Positions 30,886-52,510 of a stretch of DNA of 64,000 nucleotides are shown here, in pieces. A model generated the notes under the pieces. That model did not search any database. It saw only the letters and a program-made list of their open reading frames with translations, and was not told where the DNA came from. The stretch covers positions 310,001 through 374,000 of the forward strand of contig JAHBVV010000003.1 in NCBI GenBank assembly GCA_019637335.1, given 5' to 3'. Position numbers and translations under genes: made by a program. How positions within the stretch are numbered: position 1 is the stretch's first letter; every line of letters begins with the position of its first letter. The stretch is from Candidatus Hydrogenedentota bacterium (GTDB lineage: Bacteria > Hydrogenedentota > Hydrogenedentia > Hydrogenedentales > JAEUWI01).

Positions 30886-30936
30886 GGTGGCCCCGAGTGT
30901 AATTCAGGGTTTCCCCAATAAGCTGGAGTCATTGCC

Positions 30937-32106
30937 GTGCGCCCCCTTGCCGTTATCGCCGCTGTCCTCACCCTGTTGGCCGCAACCCCCGCGGTCGCCG
31001 CCGAAGCCGTTCACATGTTCCCGCCCCAGGGAAAGCACGTCCACAGCAGCTCCATCGTGGAGTGTCCCAACGGCGATCTGCTGGCTACCTGGTTCCACGG
31101 ATCCGGTGAGCGCAGCGCCAACGACGTCCGCATTCAGGGCGCGCGCCTGAAGAAGGGCGCATCGGCCTGGGGGCCCGTCTTTGAAATGGCCGACACCCCC
31201 GACCTGCCGGACTGCAATCCGGTCCTCTTCATCGATGCGAACGAAAAGCTGTGGCTCTTCTGGATGGTCGTCCACACCAACCGCTGGGAGCGCACCATCC
31301 TCAAGTACAAGACCAGCACCGACTACCTGGGCGACGGCGCGCCGGTCTGGAACTGGCAGGACATCATCCTGCTCAAGCCGGGCCAGGATTTCGCCGCCGA
31401 TCTGAAGGCCGGCTTCCGGGAACTGGCCCACCCCGAGCCGATGTGGGCCGAATACGCCCACGCGTACACCGACATGCTCGTGGACAACGCCAGCGACCCC
31501 ATCAAGACCGACATCGGCTGGATGACGCGCACCCCCGTGCTTACCCTGAAATCCGGCCGCATCCTCATTCCGCTCTACTCCGACGGCTTCAACGTGTCGC
31601 TCGCCGCCTATTCCGACGACGGCGGCGAATCTTGGGCGGCCAGCAAGCCCATCGTCGGCCTGGGTAACATCCAGCCCGCCATCGTCGAGCGCAACGATGG
31701 CACGCTCGTCGCCTACATGCGCGACAACGGCGTCGAGCCCAAGCGCATCATCGAAGCCAGCTCCCCGGATCAGGGCGTGACCTGGACCGTGGGCACGGAC
31801 ATGGAGTTCCCCAATTCCGGGGCGAGCGTATCCGCCTGCGACATGGGCGATGGGCGCTGGGTGCTCGTCTACAACGACGCCGAGCGCGGGCGGCACAACC
31901 TTGCCATCGCGCTCTCCGAAGACGAGGGTCGGACCTGGCCCCACAAGCGCATGCTCCAGGACAGCCCCGACCAGTCCCGCTCCTTCGGCTACCCCACCGT
32001 GATGAAAGGCAGCGACGGCAACGTCCACCTCTCCTACTCCTACAAAGGCCCCGAAGGCGCCACGATCGACTATATGACCTTCCCCGTGGACGCGATAAAG
32101 CAATAA
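30937..32106 (+). CDS. Secreted sialidase-like (BNR/Asp-box) glycoside hydrolase
   Basis: A 389-residue protein with a signal peptide (about residues 1-22, ending TPAVAAEA). Asp-box motifs S-x-D-x-G-x-x-W recur: YSDDGGESWAA, SSPDQGVTWTVG and LSEDEGRTWPHK, giving the six-bladed sialidase fold. An Arg in FHGSGERSANDVRI and the sequence WMTRTPVLTL may hold catalytic arginines. It resembles the exo-alpha-sialidase group common in PVC bacteria. Not all such proteins cleave sialic acid; some act on sulfated or other glycans. GTG start at 30937 with CTGGAG upstream. The gene is followed by tandem repeat elements. Confidence 0.82.
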   Translation: MRPLAVIAAVLTLLAATPAVAAEAVHMFPPQGKHVHSSSIVECPNGDLLATWFHGSGERSANDVRIQGARLKKGASAWGPVFEMADTPDLPDCNPVLFIDANEKLWLFWMVVHTNRWERTILKYKTSTDYLGDGAPVWNWQDIILLKPGQDFAADLKAGFRELAHPEPMWAEYAHAYTDMLVDNASDPIKTDIGWMTRTPVLTLKSGRILIPLYSDGFNVSLAAYSDDGGESWAASKPIVGLGNIQPAIVERNDGTLVAYMRDNGVEPKRIIEASSPDQGVTWTVGTDMEFPNSGASVSACDMGDGRWVLVYNDAERGRHNLAIALSEDEGRTWPHKRMLQDSPDQSRSFGYPTVMKGSDGNVHLSYSYKGPEGATIDYMTFPVDAIKQ

Positions 32107-32138
32107 GCGCCGAGATAGCGCGCGAGGGACCCGGACAC

Positions 32139-32710
32139 CGTCCGCGGCAAATGTAAGATAGCCGTCCCGGCTGTCCACCGCGCCGAAGGCGCCAGGATCA
32201 CGGACATTCCGCGCAACGTGAGCCCGCTTCCAACAGTTCCCCAATCCCCACCAAAACCACCGCGATAAGGAATGTAGAATAGCCGTCCCGGCTGTCCACC
32301 GCGCCGAAAGGCGCAAAGGATCGCGGACATTCATGTCCGCGGCAACGTGAGCCCACCTCCAAAAAGTTCCCCTCATCCCAGCATAACCAGCTCGCAAGGA
32401 AAGTGGCACAGCTCCATGACGCGCCGGAGGCGGGCGTCCCGGCTGTCCACCACGCCGAAGGCGCAAATGTAGGATAGCCGTCCCGGCTGTCCACCGCGCC
32501 GAAAGGCGCAAAGGATCGCGGACATTCTTGTCCGCGGCAAAGTGAGCCCACCTCCAAAAGTTCCCCCGACCCTCCCAAAACCACCTCGAAAAGAAAGTGG
32601 CACAGGTCCATGACGCGCCGCAGGCGGAATAGGCGTCCCGCCTTTCCAGCGCCGAAGGCGCAAAAGTAGGATAGGCGTCCCGCCTGTCCAGCGCCGAAGG
32701 CGCGGATCAT
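32139..32710 (+). repeat. Tandem array of family-A palindromic repeats (copies 2-4 plus partial units)
   Basis: The 739-base gap between sialidase and DUF6807 genes has no gene but at least three units: 32139-32265, 32270-32430 and 32465-32610, with shortened pieces to about 32705. A full unit (about 145 bp) is GTAGGATAGCCGTCCCGGCT, GCGCCGAAAGGCGC, a CGGACA/TGTCCG stem, a GTGAGCCCACCTCCAAAAG segment and AAAGTGGCACAG. Variants change both sides of a stem together, for example GGCGTCCCGCC in place of AGCCGTCCCGGCT. Confidence 0.88.
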
Positions 32711-32845
32711 ACCAGCCTTGGGCCGCAGGCCCAGGTAGAATGACCATATTCTCAGTCAGGGCTGAAAGCCCGTATCATAACCGGGTTCCCCGCGGTCTGC
32801 GCCCGGTACTACCAGAACTTCACCCAAAACCCAGGACCAACACAC

Positions 32846-33751: not shown

Positions 33752-34231
33752 GCGCGAGAGCGTATCGCATGTGCTGACTTGACATTGCGTAATACGATGG
33801 CAGTCTGAAGTAAGGCGTTCGCCGACACGGGGCCCTTCTTACATTGGTGGTTTTCGTCAATCCCGCGAAAGCTGGTATACAGAAGATTTGCGAGGTCAAC
33901 GCTGCATGGACTCTGGATCCCCGCTTTCGTGATGATAACGGTGGTTGAATACCCAACGGCGCCACCATCAAATTTGAAAAGAGCGACTACTTCATACGGC
34001 GAAGGTCTCACGACCCTGCAAATTCGGGTCTGCCAACGAACGGTGTGGGTACTTGTGCCGGAGCCAGCTTGCGCCGTAAACTGCGCGCCGGCGTCACAGG
34101 CGGTTTTCGCGTGCGTTGGTGGTGGCGCGGGATGCGAAGTCCGTTTACGTGATGGCGCGCCACGGTTGTCCGGGGCGCCTTCCCGGAGAGAGATTGCGGG
34201 TTGCGAAAGCACCAGTAAGGGGTCGTGTTGG
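33752..34231. repeat. Gap before the NRPS with an inverted-repeat element (33848-33945)
   Basis: 480 bases of lower G+C without a credible separate gene; an open frame continues upstream from the NRPS but has no coding character. An imperfect inverted repeat has TCCCGCGAAAGCTGGTAT near 33860 and CTGGATCCCCGCTTTCGTGA near 33912. It resembles short nonautonomous repeats found between genes in many bacteria. No transposase accompanies it. Confidence 0.5.
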
Positions 34232-37200
34232 ATGGAAGCGATGAGTCCGACGGCGTGGGAGGGACCGCCGCATTCCGAATTGGATCCAGTCGAATGCCGC
34301 CCGCTTTCACCGGCGCAGGAGGAAATGTTCTCCCTCAGCCTGGCCGCCGCGGAGCAGGGCAATTATATTGAACAGGTTGTCGTGCGCCTGCGCGAGCCCT
34401 TCGAAGCATCCCGCTTCATCCAGCGCTGGCGACAGCTCCTGCAATACTATTCCGTCTTGCGGACGTCGTTTCACTGGAGAGATCTCGCGGAGCCCGTCCA
34501 GCGAACCCTCCGGGAGGTCGCTCTACCTGTCCCTGAAGAGGATTGGCGTGGCTTAACCCCCGTTGAGCAGCGGTCCCGCTTGGAGGCCTTCCTGGGGGCG
34601 GACCGCGCCCGCCCCTTCGTTCTCTCTGAAGCGCCGCTGATGCGCCTCGCCATTCTTCGTCTCGGGGAACTGGAATACACAATCATATGGACGGTGCATC
34701 ACCTGCTGGTCGATGGCCGTTCGATTCGTCTCCTGCTCCAGCAGGCGTTTTCCGATACCGGGTTAAGCGGCGATGAAGGGGCCCCCTTCGGCGCCTACAT
34801 CGATTGGTTGCAGGGGCAGCCGGCCGCACGCGCCCGGGAATTCTGGCAGGAGCATCTGGCCGGTTGCGCCGGGCCTGATCTCATCTCGCTGCCCCGGCCG
34901 TCAAGCCCGGAAGAATCCCTTCCGCCCCGCGGATCCGTGCGGAGCCAGCTGCCCGAATCGTTGACCGGCGCAATGCGGGCCTTTGCCGCCCGCGAGGAAA
35001 TAACGGTGAACGTGCTGTTGCTCGGGGCCTGGGCTCTCCTGATGCATCGTTACGCGGGTACGCCGGATCTGGTCACAGGCGCGACGAAATCCGTGCGCCA
35101 TTGCCCTCCCGTGACAGAGGCCTCCATCGGACTCTATATCAACACCCTCCCGGTTCGCACCCGCGTCGATGGCGCAATCACGGTGTCCGGCTGGCTGCGC
35201 GGCCTGCGCGAACAATGGGTGGCCTTGCGGGAGGTGGAGCACGCCTCACCACGAAACGCCGGCCCGAAAGCCGCCATATCCTCCCCCGGCTTTGAAGCCT
35301 GCTTCGTCTTCGAACGCCAGTCGATCAACGACGCCATGCGCGCGCTGGGCGGAGCCTGGGAGACCCGGGAAGTCCGGTTGCTCGAACGCACCCCCGTGCC
35401 CCTGCTGCTCGCGGCCTACGGCGGCGACGCCATCACGCTGCACATCGAGTACGATGCGCGGCGCTACACGGAGACCTGCGTTGCGCGCATGCCCGGACAT
35501 CTGCAAGCAATTCTCGCGTACCTGGTCGATAATCCCGCCGCCGTCATCGCGCGCGTGCCCGCGCTGCCGGAAGCCGAGCGGAAGCAACTCGTGCATGGCG
35601 GGCAGCCGTTGGGGAACCGGCTGCCGCCCGCCTGCCTTCACACCGCATTCGATCGCGCGGCGGACGACTTTCCAGACGCCACCGCGCTGGAGAGTCCCGG
35701 CTGCGTCCTGACCTACGGCGAGTGTCTTCGCCGCGCCAATGCCTTCGCCGCCCACCTCAAATCGTGCGGCGTCGGACCCGGATCGCGCACCGTCCTGTGT
35801 ATGCCCCGATCCGCCGGCGCCCTGATAGCCATGCTCGGGATTCTCAAGTCGGGAAGCGCCTACGTGCCCATGGACCCGGCGAATCCCGACGCCAGGCTGA
35901 AGTACTTCATGGATGACGCGAAGCCAGACGCGATCGTAACCAGCTCGGCGAGCCGTCCCGCGCCGCCCGCGCCCGGTGTCTCCATCATCCGGTTCGAGGA
36001 TGTCGCCGGCGATGAGGCGTCCGCGGAAGCCGGCCCCGCCGTGGACCCGTCGAGCACCGCCTACATTATCTATACCTCCGGCTCCACGGGCCTGCCGAAG
36101 GGGATCTGCGTCCAGCATCAAGTGGCGGCGGAGCATATTGAGACCATGCGTGCTCTCTACGGTATCGGCCCCGGCGACCGCATGCTTCACTTCGCTTCCC
36201 TGGGTTTCGACACCAGTATCGAACAGGCCTTCGTTGCGCTCGCCACCGGCGCGACCCTGGTCATCGCCGATCCCGCTCATTGTGAGCCCGCCCATTTTTC
36301 CCGCCTTCTCCAGTCCGCCCAAATCCAGGCCGCCGATCTGCCGCCGGCATTCTGGCGCCAATGGGTTGAGAGCGGTATCGCGCGTGACACGGGTGACCCT
36401 GTCTCCCCGCTGCGCGTACTGCTTGTCGGCGGAGATGTCATGCCGACCGATGTGGTAAGGCTTTGGCAACAACACCCCGCCACCGCGCCCGTGCGGCTCA
36501 TCAACGCATACGGCCCAACAGAGACCGTGATGACCGCGACGTGCTTCGAGACGCCGCCCGGATTTGGCCATGGCGGCGAGTCCCGCGTGCCCATTGGCCG
36601 CCCCCTGCCCGGCACCCAGGCCTACATCGCCGATTCCAGCCAAAACCTCCTGCCCGTCGGTGTGGCCGGCGAATTGCTCCTGGGAGGGACCCGGCTCGCC
36701 GAAGGCTACCTCAATCGAGATGCCCTGACGCGGGAGCGCTTCATCCCAAATCCTTATTGCAGCGCGCCGGGTGCGCGGCTCTATCGAAGCGGCGATCGCG
36801 CGCGCCTGCTCGAGGATGGGAACATCGAGTTCCTCGGGCGCATCGACGAGCAGATTAAGATCCGCGGATTTCGGATTGAGCCTGGCGAGCTGGAAGCCCG
36901 CCTGAGGGAACATCCCGGCGTGTCCGGCGCGGTCGTGCGATGTATTGAAAGGCGGGCCGGCGACCCTGAACTCGTTGCCTATCTCGTGCCGCGTCCCCCG
37001 GGAATTGACCGGCTCGAATTGCGCCAGTACTTGCGATCGCGGGTGCCGGAATTCATGTTGCCCGCCGCCATGATGGTGCTGGACGCGCTTCCTATGGCCG
37101 TAAACGGGAAAGTGGATTACCAGGCGCTCCCGATTCCCGGCGGGGAGGATTTTGTCTTTGCGGGAGGGGAACGCGCCGAGATCCAGACACCCCTCGAGCA

Positions 37201-38344
37201 CGCCATCGCCAACGCATGGAGCAAGGTGCTGGGGATTGCCGATATCGGCGCGCTTGACAACTTCTTCGACCTCGGTGGAAATTCCCTGACCGCGGCCCAG
37301 GTCATCGTCCGCCTGCGAGAGGAATGCGTGGGCGATATACCCCCGGGAGCACTCTTTCTGCAACCGACCATCACAGGTCTGGCCGGCCTCATCGAGCGCG
37401 CCGCCCGCCCGAATTCCGAAGCCGACCCGTGTCTCGTTCCCTTGCGGCGCGCCGCCGGCGCTCCGCTTTTCTGCGCGCTTGGGGCCGGTGGCGCCGCCTA
37501 CAGCTACGGCGCGCTGACAACCCGCCTCGATCCCGCGCAGGCTGTCTACGGTTTGCAGTACTCCCACCTTCCAGACGCCGGCCTGTTCGGCACGGTGGAG
37601 GACCTTGCAGCGAGGTACCTGGCTGCCATACGCTCCGTGCAAACCGAAGGGCCCTACTACCTCGCGGGATGGTCATTCGGCGGCATCGTCGCCTATGAAA
37701 TCGCACGCCAGCTTCTGGAGGCCGGAGAGGCGGTCGCATTGCTCGCGCTCATCGACTGCGAGGCGCACGGCTATACCCCGAGCGCACCGGGGAACCGGGC
37801 CGCCGCCCTGCGGCGCGAGGCGGCCCATTTCGCCAGGAGGCTCCGCATGCTCTGGAACACGCGGGACACCGTCGCCGTCTATGCCCGTGACTTCATCCGG
37901 ATTGCGGCGGACGCCGCGCGCGGAAAGCGCGCGGACCAGCCCACTCTGGCCGAATACCTGGACTTCGCCCGTAGCGACATTGCCCGGGTACACGCCATGA
38001 AGCAGGCGGGCCAGGCCCCATCCGATTCCCCTGCCAGCCGGATCGGCGTCGCAAATGATCAGTTCGTGCGCACCGTGGTCGCGGGGCAGCGGGCGAACGA
38101 GCGCGCCGCCGCGCGATACACAATGCGGCCCTACCCGGGAACGATCACCTTGTTTCGAACCGCCGAGGGCCCCGGACTGACGCACGAACGCGATCCAACC
38201 CTCGGCTACCATCGGCTCGCTCCGTTCGTGGATATCCGCCATATTGAGGGCGAACACCTCATGGTCGTCCGCGATCCCTACGTGGCCGGGCTCGCGCGCC
38301 AGTTGCAGGCTTGCATCAATGCGGCCCGAGAAGCCGCGGAATGA
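34232..38344 (+). CDS. Single-module nonribosomal peptide synthetase, C-A-PCP-TE (EntF-like architecture)
   Basis: About 1370 residues. Condensation domain (about 20-440): opening LSPAQEEMFSL, active site HHLLVDG at 156-162. Adenylation domain (about 460-950): A3 YTSGSTGLPKG at 614-624, A5 NAYGPTETV, A7 YRSGDRARL, A8 GRIDEQIKIRGFRIEPGELE, A10 NGKVDYQAL. Carrier domain: LGGNSL, with the phosphopantetheine Ser at 1018. Thioesterase (about 1065-1365): GWSFGG with Ser 1148, and a GEHLMV histidine. A hand reading of the specificity pocket gives D-T-E-A-L-G-A-M-T-K, which I cannot match with confidence. A terminal module with its own C domain needs an upstream acyl donor, none of which is in the window, nor an MbtH protein or phosphopantetheinyl transferase. 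ATG 34232 follows AAGGGG. Confidence 0.93.
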   Translation: MEAMSPTAWEGPPHSELDPVECRPLSPAQEEMFSLSLAAAEQGNYIEQVVVRLREPFEASRFIQRWRQLLQYYSVLRTSFHWRDLAEPVQRTLREVALPVPEEDWRGLTPVEQRSRLEAFLGADRARPFVLSEAPLMRLAILRLGELEYTIIWTVHHLLVDGRSIRLLLQQAFSDTGLSGDEGAPFGAYIDWLQGQPAARAREFWQEHLAGCAGPDLISLPRPSSPEESLPPRGSVRSQLPESLTGAMRAFAAREEITVNVLLLGAWALLMHRYAGTPDLVTGATKSVRHCPPVTEASIGLYINTLPVRTRVDGAITVSGWLRGLREQWVALREVEHASPRNAGPKAAISSPGFEACFVFERQSINDAMRALGGAWETREVRLLERTPVPLLLAAYGGDAITLHIEYDARRYTETCVARMPGHLQAILAYLVDNPAAVIARVPALPEAERKQLVHGGQPLGNRLPPACLHTAFDRAADDFPDATALESPGCVLTYGECLRRANAFAAHLKSCGVGPGSRTVLCMPRSAGALIAMLGILKSGSAYVPMDPANPDARLKYFMDDAKPDAIVTSSASRPAPPAPGVSIIRFEDVAGDEASAEAGPAVDPSSTAYIIYTSGSTGLPKGICVQHQVAAEHIETMRALYGIGPGDRMLHFASLGFDTSIEQAFVALATGATLVIADPAHCEPAHFSRLLQSAQIQAADLPPAFWRQWVESGIARDTGDPVSPLRVLLVGGDVMPTDVVRLWQQHPATAPVRLINAYGPTETVMTATCFETPPGFGHGGESRVPIGRPLPGTQAYIADSSQNLLPVGVAGELLLGGTRLAEGYLNRDALTRERFIPNPYCSAPGARLYRSGDRARLLEDGNIEFLGRIDEQIKIRGFRIEPGELEARLREHPGVSGAVVRCIERRAGDPELVAYLVPRPPGIDRLELRQYLRSRVPEFMLPAAMMVLDALPMAVNGKVDYQALPIPGGEDFVFAGGERAEIQTPLEHAIANAWSKVLGIADIGALDNFFDLGGNSLTAAQVIVRLREECVGDIPPGALFLQPTITGLAGLIERAARPNSEADPCLVPLRRAAGAPLFCALGAGGAAYSYGALTTRLDPAQAVYGLQYSHLPDAGLFGTVEDLAARYLAAIRSVQTEGPYYLAGWSFGGIVAYEIARQLLEAGEAVALLALIDCEAHGYTPSAPGNRAAALRREAAHFARRLRMLWNTRDTVAVYARDFIRIAADAARGKRADQPTLAEYLDFARSDIARVHAMKQAGQAPSDSPASRIGVANDQFVRTVVAGQRANERAAARYTMRPYPGTITLFRTAEGPGLTHERDPTLGYHRLAPFVDIRHIEGEHLMVVRDPYVAGLARQLQACINAAREAAE

Positions 38345-41371: not shown

Positions 41372-44300
41372 ATGTCTTCCTGTCACCGTAATTCGGTTTC
41401 GTTCCTGTTTCCGCTTCAGGCAGCGCGACGTCTCGCCTGGGCGTTGGTCTGGGGCGCGCTGGCCTCGCCGGCCCTGGCGTTCTCGCTATCGGCGGGACTG
41501 CTCCCCGCGATCGCCCTGGCCTCTGGCGAGGAAAAAGCCACCACCGGCGTGGCGTCGCCCGCGCCCGCCGTCACCTTCGCGGGCATTTCTCCCGCCAATT
41601 CCACGCCGCCCGACAGCCACGGCGCCGTCGGCCCCAACCACGTTATGACCCAGATCAATGGGCAGTCCGTGATCCGCGATCGCGCCGGCAACCTGCTGAG
41701 CAGCGTGGGCCTCACAAGCTTCTGGTCGAGCCTCGGCGTCAGCGATGTCTTCGATCCCAAGGTGCTCTACGACGTCCACAGCAACCGCTTCATCGCCGTG
41801 GCCTGCGCGCAGCGCCGCTCCTCCGCCTCGGGCATGCTCTTCGGCGTATCCGCCACCGGCGACCCCACCGGAGCCTGGCATCTCTGGCTGCTCGACGCCG
41901 ACCCCGCCAACGTAAACTGGGTTGACTTCCCGAGCATCGGGTTGACCGCCAACCGGATCACGTTCACCGGCAATTTGTTCAGCGTCTCCGGGGACCAGTT
42001 CGGCGGCGTCAACATCTGGACCATCGATAAGGCGAGCGCCCTCGACGGCGGCGGCATCACCATGCAGCTGATGAAGGTGACCAACGCGGGCGGCACCCTC
42101 GTCCCCGCCTACACGCACGACGCGGCCCAGTCCACGCAATACATCGTTCGCACAGGCACCTCTAACCTCTTCGGCACGGGGCGCCTACAGGTCTACCAGA
42201 TCACCGGAAGCATTGGCTCGCTCACATTCAGCCAGATCCCATTCGCCTCCATCGGCCCCCCGTGGAGCATTTCGCTGCCCAACGCCAAGCAGCTCGGAAC
42301 CACCGCGACCATCGAGACCAACGACGACCGCCTGATGAACGCGGTTGTGCGCAATGGACGCCTCTGGACAACGCACACCATCGGCTTCAACACCACCACG
42401 CGCGACCACACCGCCGTGCAATGGTGGGAAATCAGCCCGGCCGACGGCAGCGTCATTCAGACCGGCCTTATCGAAGATGTGGACGCCTCCGGCGTTTTCA
42501 ATCCTTCCACGGGCAGGTTTTACTATTTCCCATCCGTGGCCGTGAACAGCGCCAACGATGTGCTCATCGGCTTCACCGGTTCCGGCGCGCTGGAGTACCC
42601 CTCCTGCTACTACGCCTTCCGGCCCAGCACGGCGGCCCCCGGCCTCTTCAACGACCCGTTCAAGTACAAGGCGGGCCTGGGGACCTACAGCGGCCCCCGG
42701 TGGGGCGACTACAGCCGGGCCGTCGTCGATCCGGTGGACGACACCTCCTTCTGGACCGTGCAGCAATACACCATCGGCGGAAACCAAACCGCAAACTTCT
42801 GGGCAAAAGTCGGCACGGCGGGAAGCGGCGGCGGCGACACCACCCCCCCGTCGGTAAGCGGAGCCACCGCGACATCGAGCACCGCCGTGCGGATTACCTT
42901 CAGCGAGGCCATGCAGAACAACGCCGCACTGGTCAATCCGGCGAATTACACGTTTAACGGCGGGCTTACGGCGTCCGCGGTAACGCGCCTGAACACCACC
43001 CAGGTGTCCGTCAGCGTCAATGAAATGCGAAACGGACAGAACTACACCGCCACCGTCAGCACCAGCGGGCCGTCGGACAGCGCCGGGAACACGGTCAGCG
43101 GCTCCGCAAACACCGCCGCCTTTACCGGTATCGGCGTGGCGCCAACCGCGACCATCACCCTTTCCAATCCTAATCCAACCAACCTCGACACCGTCGCCTT
43201 CGGCGTGGCGTTCAGCGAAAGTGTGGGCACAACCTTCACCGCCGCCGACGTTTCGGCCTCCGGCACCCTCGCCTCCGGAGCCGCCATCGCCGTCACCGGC
43301 GGCCCCATAAACTTCTCCGTACAAGTCACGCCGAGCAACCCCGCGGCGAACGGCACGCTGGGCATCAACATCGGCACCGGCATCACCGACCTGGCCGGCA
43401 ATACCTTCGCCGGGGCCTCGTCGCCCGCCAGCTACACCCTGGACAATACGCCGCCCACCATCGGCGTAAACACGCTGGTAACGAGAGATTCCCGACCGCC
43501 GCTCACCGGAACGGTAAACGATACGGCGGCGCAGATCCGTATCGACGTCGGCGGCCAGAACAATCTCGTCGCCACCAACAATGGCAACGGCACGTGGACC
43601 CTTCCCGACAACGCCATTAACCCCGCACTGGCCGACGGCCTGTACAATGTCGTCGCCCGCGCCACCGACACCGCCGGTAACACCGGAACCGACACCACCA
43701 CCGGCGAGTTGAGGATCGACACCGTTCCGCCCGCCGTTACGGTCAATACCCTCGTGACGGCCAACAATCGCCCCCAGCTGAGCGGCACGGTAAGCGAGAC
43801 CGGAGCCGTTGTTACCGTCACCGTCAGCGGCCAGACCAACATGGCCACGAACAACGGCAACGGAACCTGGACCCTCCCCGCTAACGTGTTGACGGCGCTC
43901 CCAGATAATGTCTACTCCGTCACCGCCACCGCCACCGACGCCGCCGGAAATACGGGTACGGACCCCACCAGCAACGAACTTACCATCGATACGACCGGCC
44001 CCACCGTCACCGTGAACACGCTGGCGACCAGAAACACGCGCCCCGCGCTCTCCGGCACAATCAACGACAACACCGCAACCGTCTCCGTGGCCGTCGGCGG
44101 GCAGACCCGCAGCGCCACGAACAATGGCAATGGCACGTGGACCCTCCCCGCGGGCGCCATCAATCCCGGACTCGCCGACGGGACATACAACGTCGTTGTC
44201 ACCGGAACCGACATTGTCGGCAATACCGGCACGGACAACACATCCGGCGAGCTCAGAATTGACACCACGCTGAACGTTACCGTCAATTCGCTCACCACCA

Positions 44301-47300
44301 GCGATACCACGCCCCCCCTGTCGGGGACCATCGACGACAACACGGCGACGCTCACCGTCACCGTCAACGGAAATACCTACCCGGGCACAAACAACGGCAA
44401 CGGCACGTGGACCCTCCCGGACAACACCATCAGCCCGCCCCTCGCCAACGGCACGTACGACGTGGCCGTGTCGGCTATTGACTCCCTCGGAAACACCGCG
44501 ACGGATGCAACAACCAACGAATTGATCATCGACGCGACCGCGCCCGTTATCACGGTGAACAGCCTTATTACCTCGGACAATCGCCCGCCACTCAGCGGGA
44601 CGGTCAGCACCCCGGCCGCGGTCATTACCGTCGATGTGGGCGGCCAGACCGGACTTCCCGCAATCAACAACGGGAACGGAACCTGGACCCTCCCGGACAA
44701 CACCATCAACCCGGGCCTCGCGGACGGCGTATACAACGTCGTCGCGCGCGCCACCGCCGGGGGAACCGGCACCGACAACACCACCAACGAACTGACCATC
44801 GATACCATCGCGCCTGTCACGTCGGTCAACAGCCGCGTGACGAACAATCAACGACCCGCCTTGAGTGGCTCCGTAAACGAGCCGGGCGCGGCCATCACCA
44901 TCAACGTGGGCGGGCAAACCGGCCTCCCCGCGACGAACAGTGGGTCCGGAGCGTGGTCCCTGGCGGCCGGCGTCATCAATCCTCCCCTTGCCCAGGGTAC
45001 CTACGCCGTCACCGTAAACGCCACGGATCCGGCCGGCAACACCAACAATAACACCGTGGCCGGCGCCCTGGTAATCGACCTCACCGCGCCCGTCATTACC
45101 GTCGCGCCGCTCGTTACCCGAGACACCACGCCGCCGCTCACCGGAACCATCAATGACAACGCCGCCACCATCCGGATCGATGTCGCGGGCCAAACCAATC
45201 TGGCCGCCATCAATCACGGCAATGGCGCGTGGACCCTTCCGGACAACACCCTGGCCCCCCTGGCCGAGGGGACCTACAGCGTCACGGCGCGCGCCACCGA
45301 CCAGGCCGGCAATGTGGGTACGGATAGCTCCAGCAACGAGCTGACAATCGACATCACGCCCCCCGCCGTTACGGTGACCCCGCTGGCCACGGCAAACAAC
45401 CGCCCGGCGCTCGCGGGCACGGTGGACGACCCGGCCGCCTCCATATCGATTTCCGTCGCGGGCCAGACGCACGCCGCGACGAACAACGGCGACGGAACCT
45501 GGACCCTCCCGGCCAATATCCTTTCCGCGCTCGCCGACGGCGAGTACAACGTGGTCGCCACCGCCACAGACCTCCTGGGCAACGCCGCGGACGACAATAC
45601 CACCAACGAACTCCGGATCGATACCACGCCGCCGGCCGTTACCGTTGCGCCGCTTCTGACCTCGCTGGCCTCGCCCGGCCTCGGCGGATCCGTGGACGAT
45701 ATATTCGCCCAGGTGACCGTGACCGTGAACGGACAGACCCGCAATGCCGCGAACCTCGGCAACGGTACCTGGGCGCTCGCATCCGGGCAGCTCGACCCGC
45801 TCGCAAGCGGCGTGTATGACGTCGCCGTCACCGCGGCCGATCTTGTCGGCAACACGGCCAGCGATACAACCCAGGACGAATTGACCGTCGATCTCGATCC
45901 GCCCGTTATTACAGTGGACCAACTCATTACGAACGATCCAAGCCCGCCCCTGTCCGGTACGATCGACGACCCCGAAGCCACTATCATGATCACCGTCGAG
46001 GGGCAGACACTCCCCGCTGCGAACGTGGGCGACGGCACGTGGACCATCGCGGACAATGCCCTCGCGCCGCTACCGGATGGAGCCTACAATGTCCTCGCCG
46101 TGGCCACGGACGCCGCCGGTAACGTCGGCGCCGATCCAACCCTCGCGGACGACCTCTTCATCGTAACCGACGCGCCCGAAATCTCCGTGATACCGCTTGT
46201 AACAAGCGACACGACCCCACAAATCAACGGCTACGTGAGCCAGGTAAACTCCTCCATCTCCGTAACCATCGCCGGCCAGACCCACAATGCGATCAACAAC
46301 GGCGACGGCACCTGGACGCTGCCCGACAACACCCTGGCGCCGCTGCCCGAGGGCCTGTACGATGTCGAGGCCCTCGTAACCGACCTCCTCGGCAACTCCC
46401 GCGTGGACGCCACCGACGCCGAACTGACCATCGATCTGAACGCCCCCGCGATCACCGTCAACCCGCTCACCTCACGCAGCCGGACCCCCGCCCTGAGCGG
46501 AACGGTAAGCGACCCCGCCGCCCCCGTTCGGATTACCGTCGCCGGCCAGACTCACGGCGCCGCCAACAACGGTGACGGCACGTGGGCGCTCCCCGCAAAC
46601 ACCCTCGCGCCGCTTGCCGACGGGGTCTACGACGTAATCGCCGTCGCCGAGGGATCCGTGAGCGCCACGGACGCCACCGTCAACGAACTCGTGATCGACA
46701 CCGTGGGGCCATCGCTGGTCATTAGCGGGCCGAACGTCCCCGAAACGCAGGTCGGGCCCGTCAGCTTCAACCTGCACTATGGCCCCGACGCGCAGGTCGG
46801 CCTGCTGCTGAGCCATGTCAGCACCTTCTCGCTACTCGACCAGAATGTCACCGTCTTCACGCCCGGCGAGGGCAACGTCCAGAAGACCTTCCCCATTTCT
46901 ACCGCGACCGCAAGCGGCGTCGTCAGCATTTCCGGAACCGGAGACGCCGTACGCACGGTTACGGTCTCCGAACTTACCGGCGACGGCTATCTCGGCGTGG
47001 CGGTCATCGGAGGCAGCGCCGTGGATGCCGCCGGCAATCCCGCTCCAAGCGCCATCTCCACGGATTTGGTCCGCGTGGACAACACCGCTCCGCGCGTCCA
47101 GAGCGCCAGCGTGGCCAACCTGGGCATCCTGACCATCACCTTTGACGAGCCCATGGGCGAAAGCGCGCTCGACCCGTCAAACTACACCATCTCCGGCTCG
47201 GGACAGGGCTCCCTCGCGCCCCAACCCGACCTCGTCGTCCAGATGTCCCCGGTCAGATACCGGTTGGTGTGGAGCATCGGATCGTCCGTAAACGGCGGAG

Positions 47301-50300
47301 AAATCACCATCACCGTCCTCAATGCAACCGACACGGTGGGCAATCTGATTGGCGCGCAAAACACCGCGACTGTCCTGGTGGAAGGCGTTGGCGTGGCGCC
47401 GGAAGTAACCGGCGTCGAAGTGCTCGGGGCGCGATCCGTCGCCGTGCGTTTCAGCGAACCGATCGACGTCGGCGCGCTGCAAGCGGCCAACTACACGTTA
47501 AGCGGCTCTGGCCGTGGCACACTGGCCGAAAATCCCACCAGCGTTTCCGCGCTTCCCGTGAGCGACCCGGAAAACCCCGAGGTGACCTTCCCCGAGAATC
47601 GAAACGGATATCGCCTCACGTGGAGCGCCGGTGAAATGCGCCAGGGCGGCGATATCACCATAACGGTCGCCAACGTCCTCGACGGAAGCGGCGATGCCGT
47701 CGGCGCACAAAACAGCGGAACCGACCCCGGCGCGGGCATCGGCATCGCGCCAACGGTAAGCGCTTTGAGCGTCCCCACCGGCCTGTCCGTCCTCGTGGAA
47801 TTCAGCGAGCCCATGGGCGGCGGCGCGCTGGATGCGGCCAACTACGCGATCAGCGGGGAGGGCCGCGGAACGCTCGCACTGAATCCGGACTCCGTGTCTC
47901 TCGACGGGCCCGGCCGCTATCTCCTCGCCTGGAACGCGGGCGAAATGGTAAACGGGCGCGATATCACCGTCACCGCCGCAAACGTCCTGGACGAAGCCGG
48001 CAACCTGCTCGGCATGCCCGACAGCGCCACCGCCGCGCGCGCCGGGCGCGATGGCCTCATCGCCATTTCCATTCCCGCCCGCCTCGACGCGACGCTGTAC
48101 GAGGACGGCGCGGGCGCTATCGCCAGCGGCGCGGGCGCTTCCCTGCTGGCTGGCCGAAACGCCGATGGCGAAATTCGCCGCGCCCTGATTCACTTCGATG
48201 TCGCCGGCAATATTCCCGCCGGCTCCATCGTGCAGGCGGCGGAACTGACGCTGCACAGCGATGGATCCGCCGGTGACGCGAACAGCCGCACCGTGGATCT
48301 GCTGCTTGCGGCGGCATCCTGGTCGGAAGGCGATTCGGATGCCGGCGATGACTTCCTGACCGGCGCCCCCGCCGCCCCCGGAGACGCCACCTGGATTCAC
48401 CGCGAGTTCGACACTGCGGCCTGGGCAAATCCCGGCGGCGATTTCGCCCCCGGCCCGCGTGCAACCCTCGCCGTGGCCGGCGCGGGCGCGTGGACTTGGG
48501 AGTCTCCCGAGATGCTCGCCGATGTACAACAATGGCTGGACGATCCCGACGCCAATTTCGGATGGCTGCTTCGCGGCGATGAGAGCGTTCCCGGAACCGT
48601 CAAGCACTTCTTCAGCGATGAACACGGCGAATTGGCCCAGCGCCCCGCGCTCGACATCATCTATTCGCTGAATGGCGGCCCGGGCGGGCCCGTGCTCGGA
48701 ACCATCGGCGATCAGGACGTTGACGAGGGCGATACGCTCGCGCTCGACCTCACCGCCGTTGACACCGGCGATAACCCGCTCGCGATTACCGCCGTGCTGG
48801 CCAGCCTGCCCGCCGGCCACAACGCCACGCTCGAAGACCGGGGGGACGGTACGGCCGCCTTCACCTGGACGCCGGCATTCGTCGATTCGGGAACCTACGT
48901 GGTCACCTTCATTGCGACCCAGCAGGGCGTTGCGGATCCCCTGAGCGCCTCCGAGACCATCGTTATAAACGTGCGCGAATTCAACCAGCCCCCCGTCTTC
49001 GAAGACCCCGGTGTGCAGTTCGCAACCGAAGGCAGTCTGTTTACCTTCGACCCCGTCCTGAACGATGGGGACGCCGGTGACACGCATTCCTATTCCCTGG
49101 TTGTCTCCAAGGGTGACGCCGAAGTCGACCCCGCAACCGGGCGTCTCACCTGGACCCCGGGATTCAGTGACGCCGGCGACCATACCATACGGATCCGCGC
49201 CGTGGACAGCGGAATACCGCCTCGCGACGCCCTCCTCGAACTGCAAATTAACGTGGTGGACGCAAACGGGCCGCCGGCCATCGCCCCCATTGGCGATCAG
49301 GTCGTCGTCGAACGCGAAACCCTGTCCTTCCTCGTCCAGGCGACCGATCCGGACCTCGCCGACACCCTCGCGTTCGCCCTCGAAGGGGCGCGGGCCGGAA
49401 GTAGTATTGACCCCGTGTCCGGGGTGTTCACCTGGACGCCCACGATCATTGATGCCGGCGAATATGACGTCACCTTCGTGGTCACCGACAACGGCGATCC
49501 CGCCTTGAGCGCGCGCCAGACCATCCGGATCACCGTCCTCGACGCCAACCAGCAGCCCACGGATATCCGCCTCACGCCATCGAACATTGCCGAGAATCAG
49601 CCCGCCGGAACCGTCGTCGGCGTGCTTACGACCGTCGACCCCGATGTCGCCGACCAGCACACCTACACATTTGCCGAAGGGCCGGGCGACAGCGGAAACC
49701 AGCATTTCGTAATCCAGGGCAATGAGCTCAGGTCGGCTACATCGTTCAACTTCGAGGCGCAATCCAGCTACAGCATTCGCATACGGACCTTCGATGGCAA
49801 AGATGGGGCCTTCACGCGCGCCCTTACCGTGAGCATCACCAATGCCAACGACCCCCCGGAGGCCATCTTGCTTTCGAACACGACCGTCGATGAAAACGTC
49901 CCGCCCGGGACCGTGGTCGGCGCCCTCCGCACCATCGACGAAGACCGGTCCAATGTGCATCTCTACAGTCTCGTGGCAGGCGAAGGCGACACCGACAACT
50001 CGCTCTTCGCCATCAGCGGCGACAACCTCGTCACCGCCGGGCCCATCGATTTCGAGACAAAGAGCAGCCTCAGCGTTCGAATTCGCAGCACCGACCCGGC
50101 CGGAGCCTTTGTCGAAGCCGTCTTCACCATCGCCGTGAACGATCTCAACGATACGCCGGAAAGTATCAGCCTGAGCAACGCGACCGTCCTGGAGAATCAG
50201 CCCGCCGGCACACTGGTCGGCGAGTTCATGGCGGGCGATGCCGACGGCGATTCCCACACCTACACGCTGGTTTCCGGAGAGGGCGCCGCCGACAACGACC

Positions 50301-52510
50301 GCTTCCAGATCGAGGGCAACGAGCTCTTGACCGCCGTCCCGCTGGACTTCGAGCGGGCCCGCTTCCGGAGCATCCGGGTTCGCGCCAGCGACGGCCGGAA
50401 CGTGAGCTTCGAGATGGTCTTCGAGATCGAGGTCCTGGATGCGAACGATCCCCCCACCGACATCGTACTCAGCGCCTCCGCGATCCTGGGCAACGTGCCC
50501 GCCGGCACAAAGATCGCCGATATCCGGACCATCGACCAGGACCTGGATGACGCCCATGTCTACAGCCTTGTCGCCGGAGAAGGCGGGCAGAACAACAGCC
50601 GTTTCCAGATTGATGGAAGTGCGCTCGTCGCGCGCCAACGCGTAAACTTCGATTCAAATGCCCAGTTCAACATCCGGATCCGCACCACGGATCGCGGCGG
50701 AGCCACATTCGAGAAGCCCTTCATACTCACAAACGATGACGTCGACGGCGACGGCCTTTCCGATGCCTGGGAACTGGCCAACTTCGGCAATCTGGCGGCC
50801 GGCCCCGAGGAAGACGCCGATGGCGACGGCCTGACCAACGCGCAAGAGTTCGAATTCGGCACGGATCCGCTCAATCCCGATACCGACGGCGACGGATTCT
50901 CGGACGCCGAGGAAATAGCGCTCGGAACCGACCCCCTGGATCCAAACGATGCGCCCGCATCGCTGCGCGTAACCCCGCAATCGGCCTCGGCGCCGCGCTC
51001 CGGCGGCACGGTAACCCTGCGCGTCGAAAACCGGGGCAAGGCCGGAATGAACTGGCGGGCGGTCCCCGTCGCGGGGGACTTCATCGAGATTCTTTCCGGG
51101 TCCAGTGGCGTCGATCGCGGCGAAATTCGCGTCTCGGTCGCCCCCAACGCCGCGCCAACCGCGCGCGCCGCGGCGGTTCGTGTCTCCGCGCCCGGTACCG
51201 CGGGCAGCCCGCTGGAGGTCGAGATCGTTCAGGATCCCTGCGTGGCGCCTCCCGCGCCTACCGGCGTCCGCGCAACCAACGGAACCGTTCCCGGCCTCGT
51301 GCGAATCACGTGGAGCCCCGTACCCGACGCCGAGCGCTACATGATCTATCGCGGCCTCGAAAACGATCCGGCTCGCGCCGTTCTCCTCGCCACGGTGACC
51401 GGCTCCGCCTATACCGACCGGAACGCCCCGGCCCTCCGGGACAAACAGGCCGGAGGAGACGCCGGTTGCGCCCTGCTGCCCGAGCCCGAGCCCGCCGCCA
51501 GCGCATACCTCTACTGGGTGCGCGCATCCAGCGCCTGCGGGACCAGCGCCTTCAGCGTCCCCGATGACGGCTTCCCCGGCCCGGGCGCTCCACCGGCGCG
51601 CGAAATCTTCGAGCCCGTGCTTCCAACCTTCGAAACCGAAGATCGGACCCTCACCGCGCGCGAAGACTCCGTGCTGGCAATCCGGTTGCGCCGGGACACC
51701 GCGATCGATCCCGCCTCCATCCAGGGGCTCGTCGAGTTTGCCGGCGGTTCCAGCGACAGCGTCGCCTGGCAGGCGATCGATGCCGCCGGACTCCGGGATG
51801 GCTGGGCCGTGTACCGCCCGGAACCCGGCCAGTTCACGCCGGGAGACAGCGTGACATTCACCGTCGTCGCGTCCACCGTCGCCGGCGAGGCGATCGGGCC
51901 CCTCAGCTACAGCTTCGATATCGAGACCGAAGCCGAGTTCCTGGGCAGGATCGCGGCCAGCGCGGAACCGCTCTACCAGCCCGGCTACACCGAGTTCGAT
52001 GCGAGCGCGCTCGATCTCGCGCGCGAAGACAACAGCCAGGTCAACGTCTATACCGCCGCGCCGGATGGCCTCCCAAGCGCCCCCCCCGGCGCGATCGGCC
52101 CCGTATACGCCATCGTGCCCGATGAGCTCTACCAGAGGCCCCAGCGCGTGTGGATTCCGCTCGAAGGCGATCTGCAAGCCACCGACGTCTCCGTACAGTA
52201 CTACTTCGCGGACAAGTCCGGCGAGGCGAGCGGTTGGCAACCCGCGGGCGCCATCCGCGGATGGACCGTCCCGGACACCTTTGTAGCGCTGGAACTGGAC
52301 GGCGTCCGCTATGTCGGCTTCGTCGTGCGGCACGGCGGCCTGATCCAGATCAGCACCGCCGCCCTCCGCTCCATGAAGCCCGCCCAGGCCGCCATGCTTC
52401 CGCTCGAGGATTTGGTGCGGTCGCACGGAGGAAACGGAATCGTTATCCTCGGATTGCTCGGAGCCCTCTGCCTGCACGCCATGCGCCGGCGGCGATACAT
52501 CGCCCCCTGA
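41372..52510 (+). CDS. Giant modular exoprotein: propeller-like head, 12 Ig-like repeats, cadherin-like, TSP3, FN3 and sorting tail
   Basis: A 3712-residue secreted or surface protein; ATG 41372 follows AAGGA. Order: signal peptide (about 15-37); propeller-like head (about 60-490); an Ig-like linker region (about 490-690); twelve tandem Ig-like repeats of about 90 residues (about 690-1777), each with a T-V-N-x-L-x-T start and a [12 protein letters not shown]-type strand; three Big-type repeats with F-x-E-P-M-G and A-N-Y (about 1905-2225); a DNRLRE/CBM96-like domain (about 2228-2437, [11 protein letters not shown]); putative Ig domains (about 2440-2725); four cadherin-like domains (about 2730-3120); calcium-binding TSP3 repeats ([24 protein letters not shown]; about 3125-3195); BACON-like and FN3-like domains; C-terminal GGNG, hydrophobic helix and RRRR. 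Likely adhesion or matrix; no enzyme motif. Confidence 0.92.
43440..46710 (+). repeat. Twelve in-frame tandem Ig-domain coding repeats
   Basis: Twelve diverged units of about 270 bases within the giant gene. The start of each can be followed by protein motifs such as [32 protein letters not shown] and [16 protein letters not shown]. The strand motif [11 protein letters not shown] is the best kept, later changing to [11 protein letters not shown]. Divergence grows toward the 3-prime units (9 and 11 are most altered). Confidence 0.88.

Follow-up and report, generated by a model that had tools for sequence, protein, structure and literature searches.

What might a nonribosomal peptide synthetase (NRPS) of one module make when no partner is in sight? 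The question is raised by a gene at positions 34232–38344 of a 64,000-nucleotide stretch (the window; contig JAHBVV010000003.1, positions 310,001 to 374,000) of a Candidatus Hydrogenedentota bacterium [GCA_019637335.1, here G000; 7.16 Mb in 55 contigs, 96% complete]. The gene encodes condensation (C), adenylation (A), peptidyl carrier (PCP) and thioesterase (TE) domains with intact motifs, its C domain belongs by descent to the DCL group, and no partner NRPS, epimerization (E) domain or MbtH protein is detectable in the genome. We tentatively read it, giving the reading a little less than even weight, as a self-contained one-module enzyme in which the DCL-type C domain would start from a diffusible acyl thioester and join it to a cationic amino acid, with release by the TE. 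The parts of the gene are the following.

34217–34222, plus strand: probable ribosome-binding site AAGGGG, 9 bases 5′ of the ATG at 34232 (sequence reading).
34232–38344, plus strand: single-module NRPS gene, C-A-PCP-TE, 1370 residues, intact open frame (list of open reading frames, Pfam, motif reading).
34301–35593, plus strand: condensation domain of the DCL clade, with HHLLVDG at 34697–34717 (Pfam, tree, PDB searches, motif reading).
35630–37129, plus strand: adenylation domain, pocket DTEDLGAMTK, probably Arg-like (Pfam, pocket mapping, published Arg codes).
37202–37393, plus strand: peptidyl carrier domain with GGNSL (Pfam, motif reading).
37463–38272, plus strand: thioesterase domain, with GWSFGG at 37667–37684 and a C-terminal GEH at 38249–38257 (Pfam, PDB, motif reading).

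All domains exceed their Pfam cut-offs [Condensation, residues 24–454, 196 bits; AMP-binding, 473–827, 259 bits; AMP-binding_C, 886–960; PP-binding, 991–1054; Thioesterase, 1078–1347], and the protein is an NRPS module both by TIGR01733 (415 bits, cut-off 317) and by its C, A and PCP core motifs. The first-pass annotation had described a C-A-PCP-TE synthetase here, which agrees with our analysis, and had named a defective catalytic residue as its possible undoing. Every core motif examined is intact: HHLLVDG (residue 156) in the C domain, YTSGSTGLPKG (614), NAYGPTE (758), YRSGD (851), GRIDEQIKIRGFR (869) and NGKVD (958) in the A domain, GGNS (1015) in the PCP and GWSFGG (1146) and GEH (1340) in the TE. 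An alternative, longer frame from a GTG at 33929 would add 101 residues. The G+C content of the gene is 66% and that of the window 65%.

The subtype of the C domain, for which the annotation had proposed a phylogeny, was placed by a tree of 33 rows: 26 domains from the phylum (that of the window and 25 others, including two from a three-module NRPS of G000) and seven references, of which three are DCL domains and one is an unverified sequence. Domains shorter than 300 residues were omitted, among them one on contig C40 of genome G008 that a gap in the assembly interrupts, and the NRPSs of the phylum are sampled in part. The C domain of the window forms one clade (support 100/100) with those of its two close relatives in the phylum, a protein of genome G005 (54–55% identity) and the first module of one of G001 (45–46%), which belong to the same family; the branching of the window and G005 domains with respect to G001 is weakly supported (82/21). 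The lone N-terminal C domain of a further genome, G009, joins this clade at 99/96, and all four group with BacC, PvdL and SrfA-C at 100/100, the remaining phylum domains in the tree all falling outside the group. We take these and the other references so classed to be DCL domains, i.e. to act downstream of an E domain; in the PDB chains of BacC and PvdL a second condensation-family stretch lies immediately upstream. Searches of the PDB give the same picture, with the window domain matching the DCL group at 130–217 bits (McyB 217, BacC 180, PvdL 177, TycB 151, SrfA-C 134) and others less well (Txo1 99, Txo2 78, TycC 66, fuscachelin 47), whereas an internal C domain of G000 gives the reverse order (TycC 270, Txo1 251, fuscachelin 209, SrfA-C 107). 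The window domain is distant from SrfA-A in the tree, although this sole starter reference is unverified and on a long branch. Its position is not that expected of a DCL domain, which would act after an E domain of the same or of another protein: it stands at the N-terminus, and the genome has no E domain that we could find.

The A-domain pocket was mapped on GrsA, whose sequence is identical to that of PDB 1amu, and reads DTEDLGAMTK. Residue 278 is D and not A, as in the D-T-E-A-L-G-A-M-T-K of the first-pass annotation, and the accompanying remark that the pocket matches no code rested on this misread residue; the true code and those of the relatives resemble the Arg codes of the anabaenopeptin synthetase domain ApnA A1. 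For Arg-only strains, Table 2 of PMC5311044 gives DVEDIGAIEK, DVEDIGAVEK and DVESIGAIEK, and related codes in the same paper also accept Lys or Tyr. Compared with DVEDIGAIEK, the code of the window is identical at six of ten positions, or at four of eight informative ones, since D235 and K517 are near-invariant, while the DVENIGAITK shared by both relatives is identical at eight of ten; a more distant gene on contig C40 of G008 has DAEDIGTVTK. ApnA A1 (PDB 4d4g) is also among the best single-domain PDB matches of the A domain (339 bits) and shares with it the pocket pattern D-x-E-D/N-I/L-G-A. Because the codes of the window and its relatives resemble those of ApnA A1, a cationic amino acid is the likely substrate, and the acidic residues E239 and D278 point the same way; arginine would be the most probable, or else lysine or ornithine.

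Around the NRPS gene, a Pfam search of the flanking genes revealed no biosynthetic partner. The neighbours are unremarkable (BNR sialidase-like, DUF6807, SIS, BadF ATPase, cation efflux) and the two genes 3′ of it are without a Pfam match, in keeping with the earlier description of a stand-alone synthetase. In the whole genome there are three condensation-family matches, the window gene and two within one NRPS on contig C1 [A-PCP-C-A-PCP-C-A-PCP-TE; L037:10162–19257 (G000:C1:644180–653242)], and, as the domain context accounts for all three, no E domain was found in this 96% complete assembly. The pockets of the three-module NRPS are DFWNIGMVFK, which we take to be Thr-like, DVYFLGSEHK and DAYYMGAVYK; it was considered as a donor in trans and rejected, because its chain ends in its own TE. 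Carrier domains number nine: three in the three-module NRPS, one in the window gene, one in an 80-residue frame on contig C40, taken as a fatty-acid acyl carrier protein (ACP), and four ACPs in a single 2291-residue synthase of polyunsaturated fatty acid (PUFA) type; no free-standing PCP partner is visible among them. With neither an E domain nor a free PCP in the genome, the N-terminal C domain is, as had been suspected, without an obvious thioester donor. The reported absence of MbtH extends to the whole genome as assembled, whereas that of a phosphopantetheinyl transferase is correct near the gene and wrong for the genome, which has one such gene of Sfp/AASDHPPT type [G000:C24:53241–53555, 250 residues, AASDHPPT-type N-terminus]; no separate AcpS was found in G000, this being its sole member of the family. 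AMP-forming ligases at five other loci resemble FadD (two), MenE, acetate-CoA ligase (Acs) and olefin β-lactone synthetase (OleC).

About 8 kb separate the PUFA-type synthase, with its four tandem ACPs, from a set of ole-like genes [OleA-like ketoacyl synthase III, OleC and an OleD-like 3β-hydroxysteroid dehydrogenase; L096:8675–15550, L097:3549–11356 (G000:C6)]. Together they are perhaps a polyene hydrocarbon cluster.

Relatives were sought in 68 genomes of the phylum. The G005 protein is matched at E 1e-170 or better in 17 of them, mostly by ordinary NRPSs of 32–42% identity. The G001 relative is the first module of a 2472-residue two-module synthetase and is 50% identical to that of G005. 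In G000, G005 and G001 alike the NRPS part opens with the DCL-clade C domain, and the three loci are unrelated: no other clear shared orthologue is adjacent to the NRPS genes, the comparison of neighbourhoods having given weak large-family matches and one G005–G001 pair (66%) far from the NRPS. By domain context no E domain is present in G001 or G009. The four condensation-family matches of G001 all precede an A domain, in genes of the order A-PCP-C-A-PCP-TE or C-A-PCP-C-A-PCP-TE. In G009, which is 99% complete, the only C domain is the DCL-clade domain of a lone C-A-PCP gene [L114:701–4966 (G009:C629)] in which Pfam finds no TE and whose pocket, DILQLGMVWK, is presumably Gly-like. Outside the phylum, scans with peptide patterns gave two distant A-domain matches in genome contigs (26–27%) and none in viral sequences; 285 plasmid records matched, all below 60% identity, with the best 25 of the 285 at 29–37%. 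Such patterns detect close relatives only, so these scans are weak evidence of absence.

The relative in G005 has an unusual N-terminus. The NRPS continues in frame from a complete [2Fe-2S]-FAD-NAD reductase (Fer2, FAD_binding_6 and NAD_binding_1 in Pfam), and the order at the locus [L031:9620–15678 (G005:C95)] is a truncated globin gene, then the reductase fused to C-A-PCP-TE, with a divergent Rrf2 regulator adjoining. Relatives of the reductase occur in 16 of the 68 genomes and globin matches in 21, and a comparison of the two tables shows the globin gene directly preceding the reductase gene in all 16; the pair is plausibly a split nitric-oxide dioxygenase. G000 carries it at C1:536059–537399; the window is on a different contig. 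Divergent Rrf2-like frames are found upstream of the pair in G005 (Pfam) and in G002 and G003 (by eye). The reductase frame runs on into an NRPS only in G005 (1787 residues, compared with 209–391 in the other 15); where the reductase stands alone, its C-terminus is DAFLPAGG or a similar sequence, and at this point the NRPS of G005 begins. The fusion therefore arose secondarily in G005. There the NRPS has evidently been retained with a covalently blocked N-terminus, which is no evidence that the window enzyme is redox-coupled. Searches of an open-access library yielded no description of this globin, reductase-NRPS and Rrf2 architecture, and nothing useful on NRPSs of the phylum.

The C-A-PCP-TE architecture itself is already known from EntF (enterobactin synthetase component F), SrfA-C (surfactin synthetase subunit 3, PDB 2vsq) and the Acinetobacter protein AB3403 (PDB 4zxh); the differences lie in a starting domain of DCL type that no E domain accompanies, in the Arg-like pocket and in an odd fusion within the family. 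For the PCP-TE part AB3403 gives the highest PDB score (91 bits); the C domains match at only 48 bits, and the cluster partners of AB3403 are absent here. EntF is likewise among the best matches of PCP-TE but differs in pocket and in C subtype. The first-pass annotation had equated the architecture with that of EntF, and this stands for the order of domains and fails for identity: the protein scores 431.9 bits against the EntF equivalog NF007605 (NCBIfam cut-off 2400) and 439.7 bits against NF038078, the equivalog of the myxochelin synthetase MxcG (cut-off 2300). The relatives in G005 and G001 share the C clade and the pocket type of the window enzyme and differ from it in the additional N-terminal reductase and the additional second module, respectively.

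SrfA-C invites another explanation, namely that the enzyme closes a split assembly line and receives its D-aminoacyl or peptidyl thioester in trans, from an A-PCP-E protein that the assembly lacks. It shares domain order and C subtype with SrfA-C, which is in the same reference group, and a genome of this completeness could lack a gene. However, the E-domain partner that presumably acts upstream of SrfA-C has no counterpart in G000, nor has a stand-alone PCP been found there; an adjacent partner is absent at the G005 and G001 loci too; G009 holds, in a nearly complete genome, a single C domain and that of DCL-clade type; and the fused reductase of G005 occupies the NRPS N-terminus, which leaves an upstream docking domain no room. 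We regard a split line as unlikely, if not negligibly so. Decay would also account for an orphan C domain without a cluster: the gene may be the remnant of a longer synthetase, such as the two-module and likewise TE-terminated version that G001 retains, and now make nothing or merely hydrolyse its own aminoacyl thioester. Against this are the catalytic motifs, all intact across 1370 codons, and the retention of the same unit in two further genomes of the family, so that we hold a relic to be quite unlikely.

Two further explanations start from EntF. A single module with a TE could act iteratively, as EntF does, and release a small homo-oligomer of the cationic amino acid; EntF, however, requires a second carrier to start, and with no second carrier partner seen in G000 this is very unlikely. 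An aryl or catechol siderophore, with other genes of the genome providing the dihydroxybenzoate (DHB), would suit the EntF-like architecture, and an isochorismate synthase-family gene at C8:36035 does score above its cut-off. The latter is best read as menaquinone metabolism, since MenE is present; the pocket code is not one for Ser; none of the ligases at the five loci resembles a DHB-AMP ligase, more distant ligases being outside the reach of the search; and no siderophore receptor in G000 scores above cut-off, three weak matches lying below. Equivalog scores, pocket, ligase survey and receptor search do not support an EntF or siderophore identity, and a siderophore of this kind as product is highly improbable.

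We return to the self-contained enzyme. The Sfp-like transferase encoded elsewhere would arm the PCP, onto which the A domain would load the cationic amino acid, to judge from the pocket most likely Arg (or Lys or Orn). The N-terminal C domain would serve as a starter, taking an acyl-CoA or acyl-ACP from primary or PUFA-type metabolism, and N-acylate the PCP-bound amino acid; the TE may then free an N-acyl amino acid or cyclise the product. The FadD-type acyl-CoA ligases of G000 count in favour of this scheme. Several points weigh against it. Substrate, donor and product are deduced and not observed, and a partner could be missing, given the completeness of the genome. The pocket has T at position 331 where the ApnA codes tabulated for Arg-only strains have E. 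G005 has a separate, self-contained NRPS, A-PCP-(E?)-C-A-PCP-TE, whose tandem pair of condensation-family matches probably includes an E domain in cis. We know of no DCL domain that uses an acyl-CoA. In PMC10212144, bacterial DCL domains are reported downstream of an E domain and Starter C domains form a separate subtype. Because bacterial DCL domains normally follow an E domain, it is unusual to meet one at the head of a stand-alone gene when no E domain can be detected in the genome.

Two other features of the window may be recorded. Frames on the minus strand at 30904–32750 repeat phrases such as AVDSRDGY and RWTAGTAILH, which suggests interspersed DNA repeats between genes, and 41372–52510 encodes a secreted repeat protein of 3712 residues with, by eye, Ig-like and cadherin-like repeats.

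A wider proposal would have the DCL-clade C domain turned into an initiation domain across an autonomous one-module family of the phylum, which would acylate a cationic amino acid from a diffusible thioester with neither E domain nor partner; in G005 the in-frame link to the NADH reductase of the truncated globin would couple product formation, physically and transcriptionally, to the redox chemistry of the globin or to a stress response of nitric-oxide type. Taken whole, we consider it distinctly improbable. The fusion of G005 is in any case an unusual redox-NRPS architecture. If the DCL-type C domain does start alone, it would be an exception to the genome-mining rule that a DCL domain means an epimerized donor upstream, and small acyl amino acids could be predicted as the products of stand-alone modules that are usually dismissed as orphans. 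As a single 4-kb gene can be assayed without a cluster, the question is directly testable.

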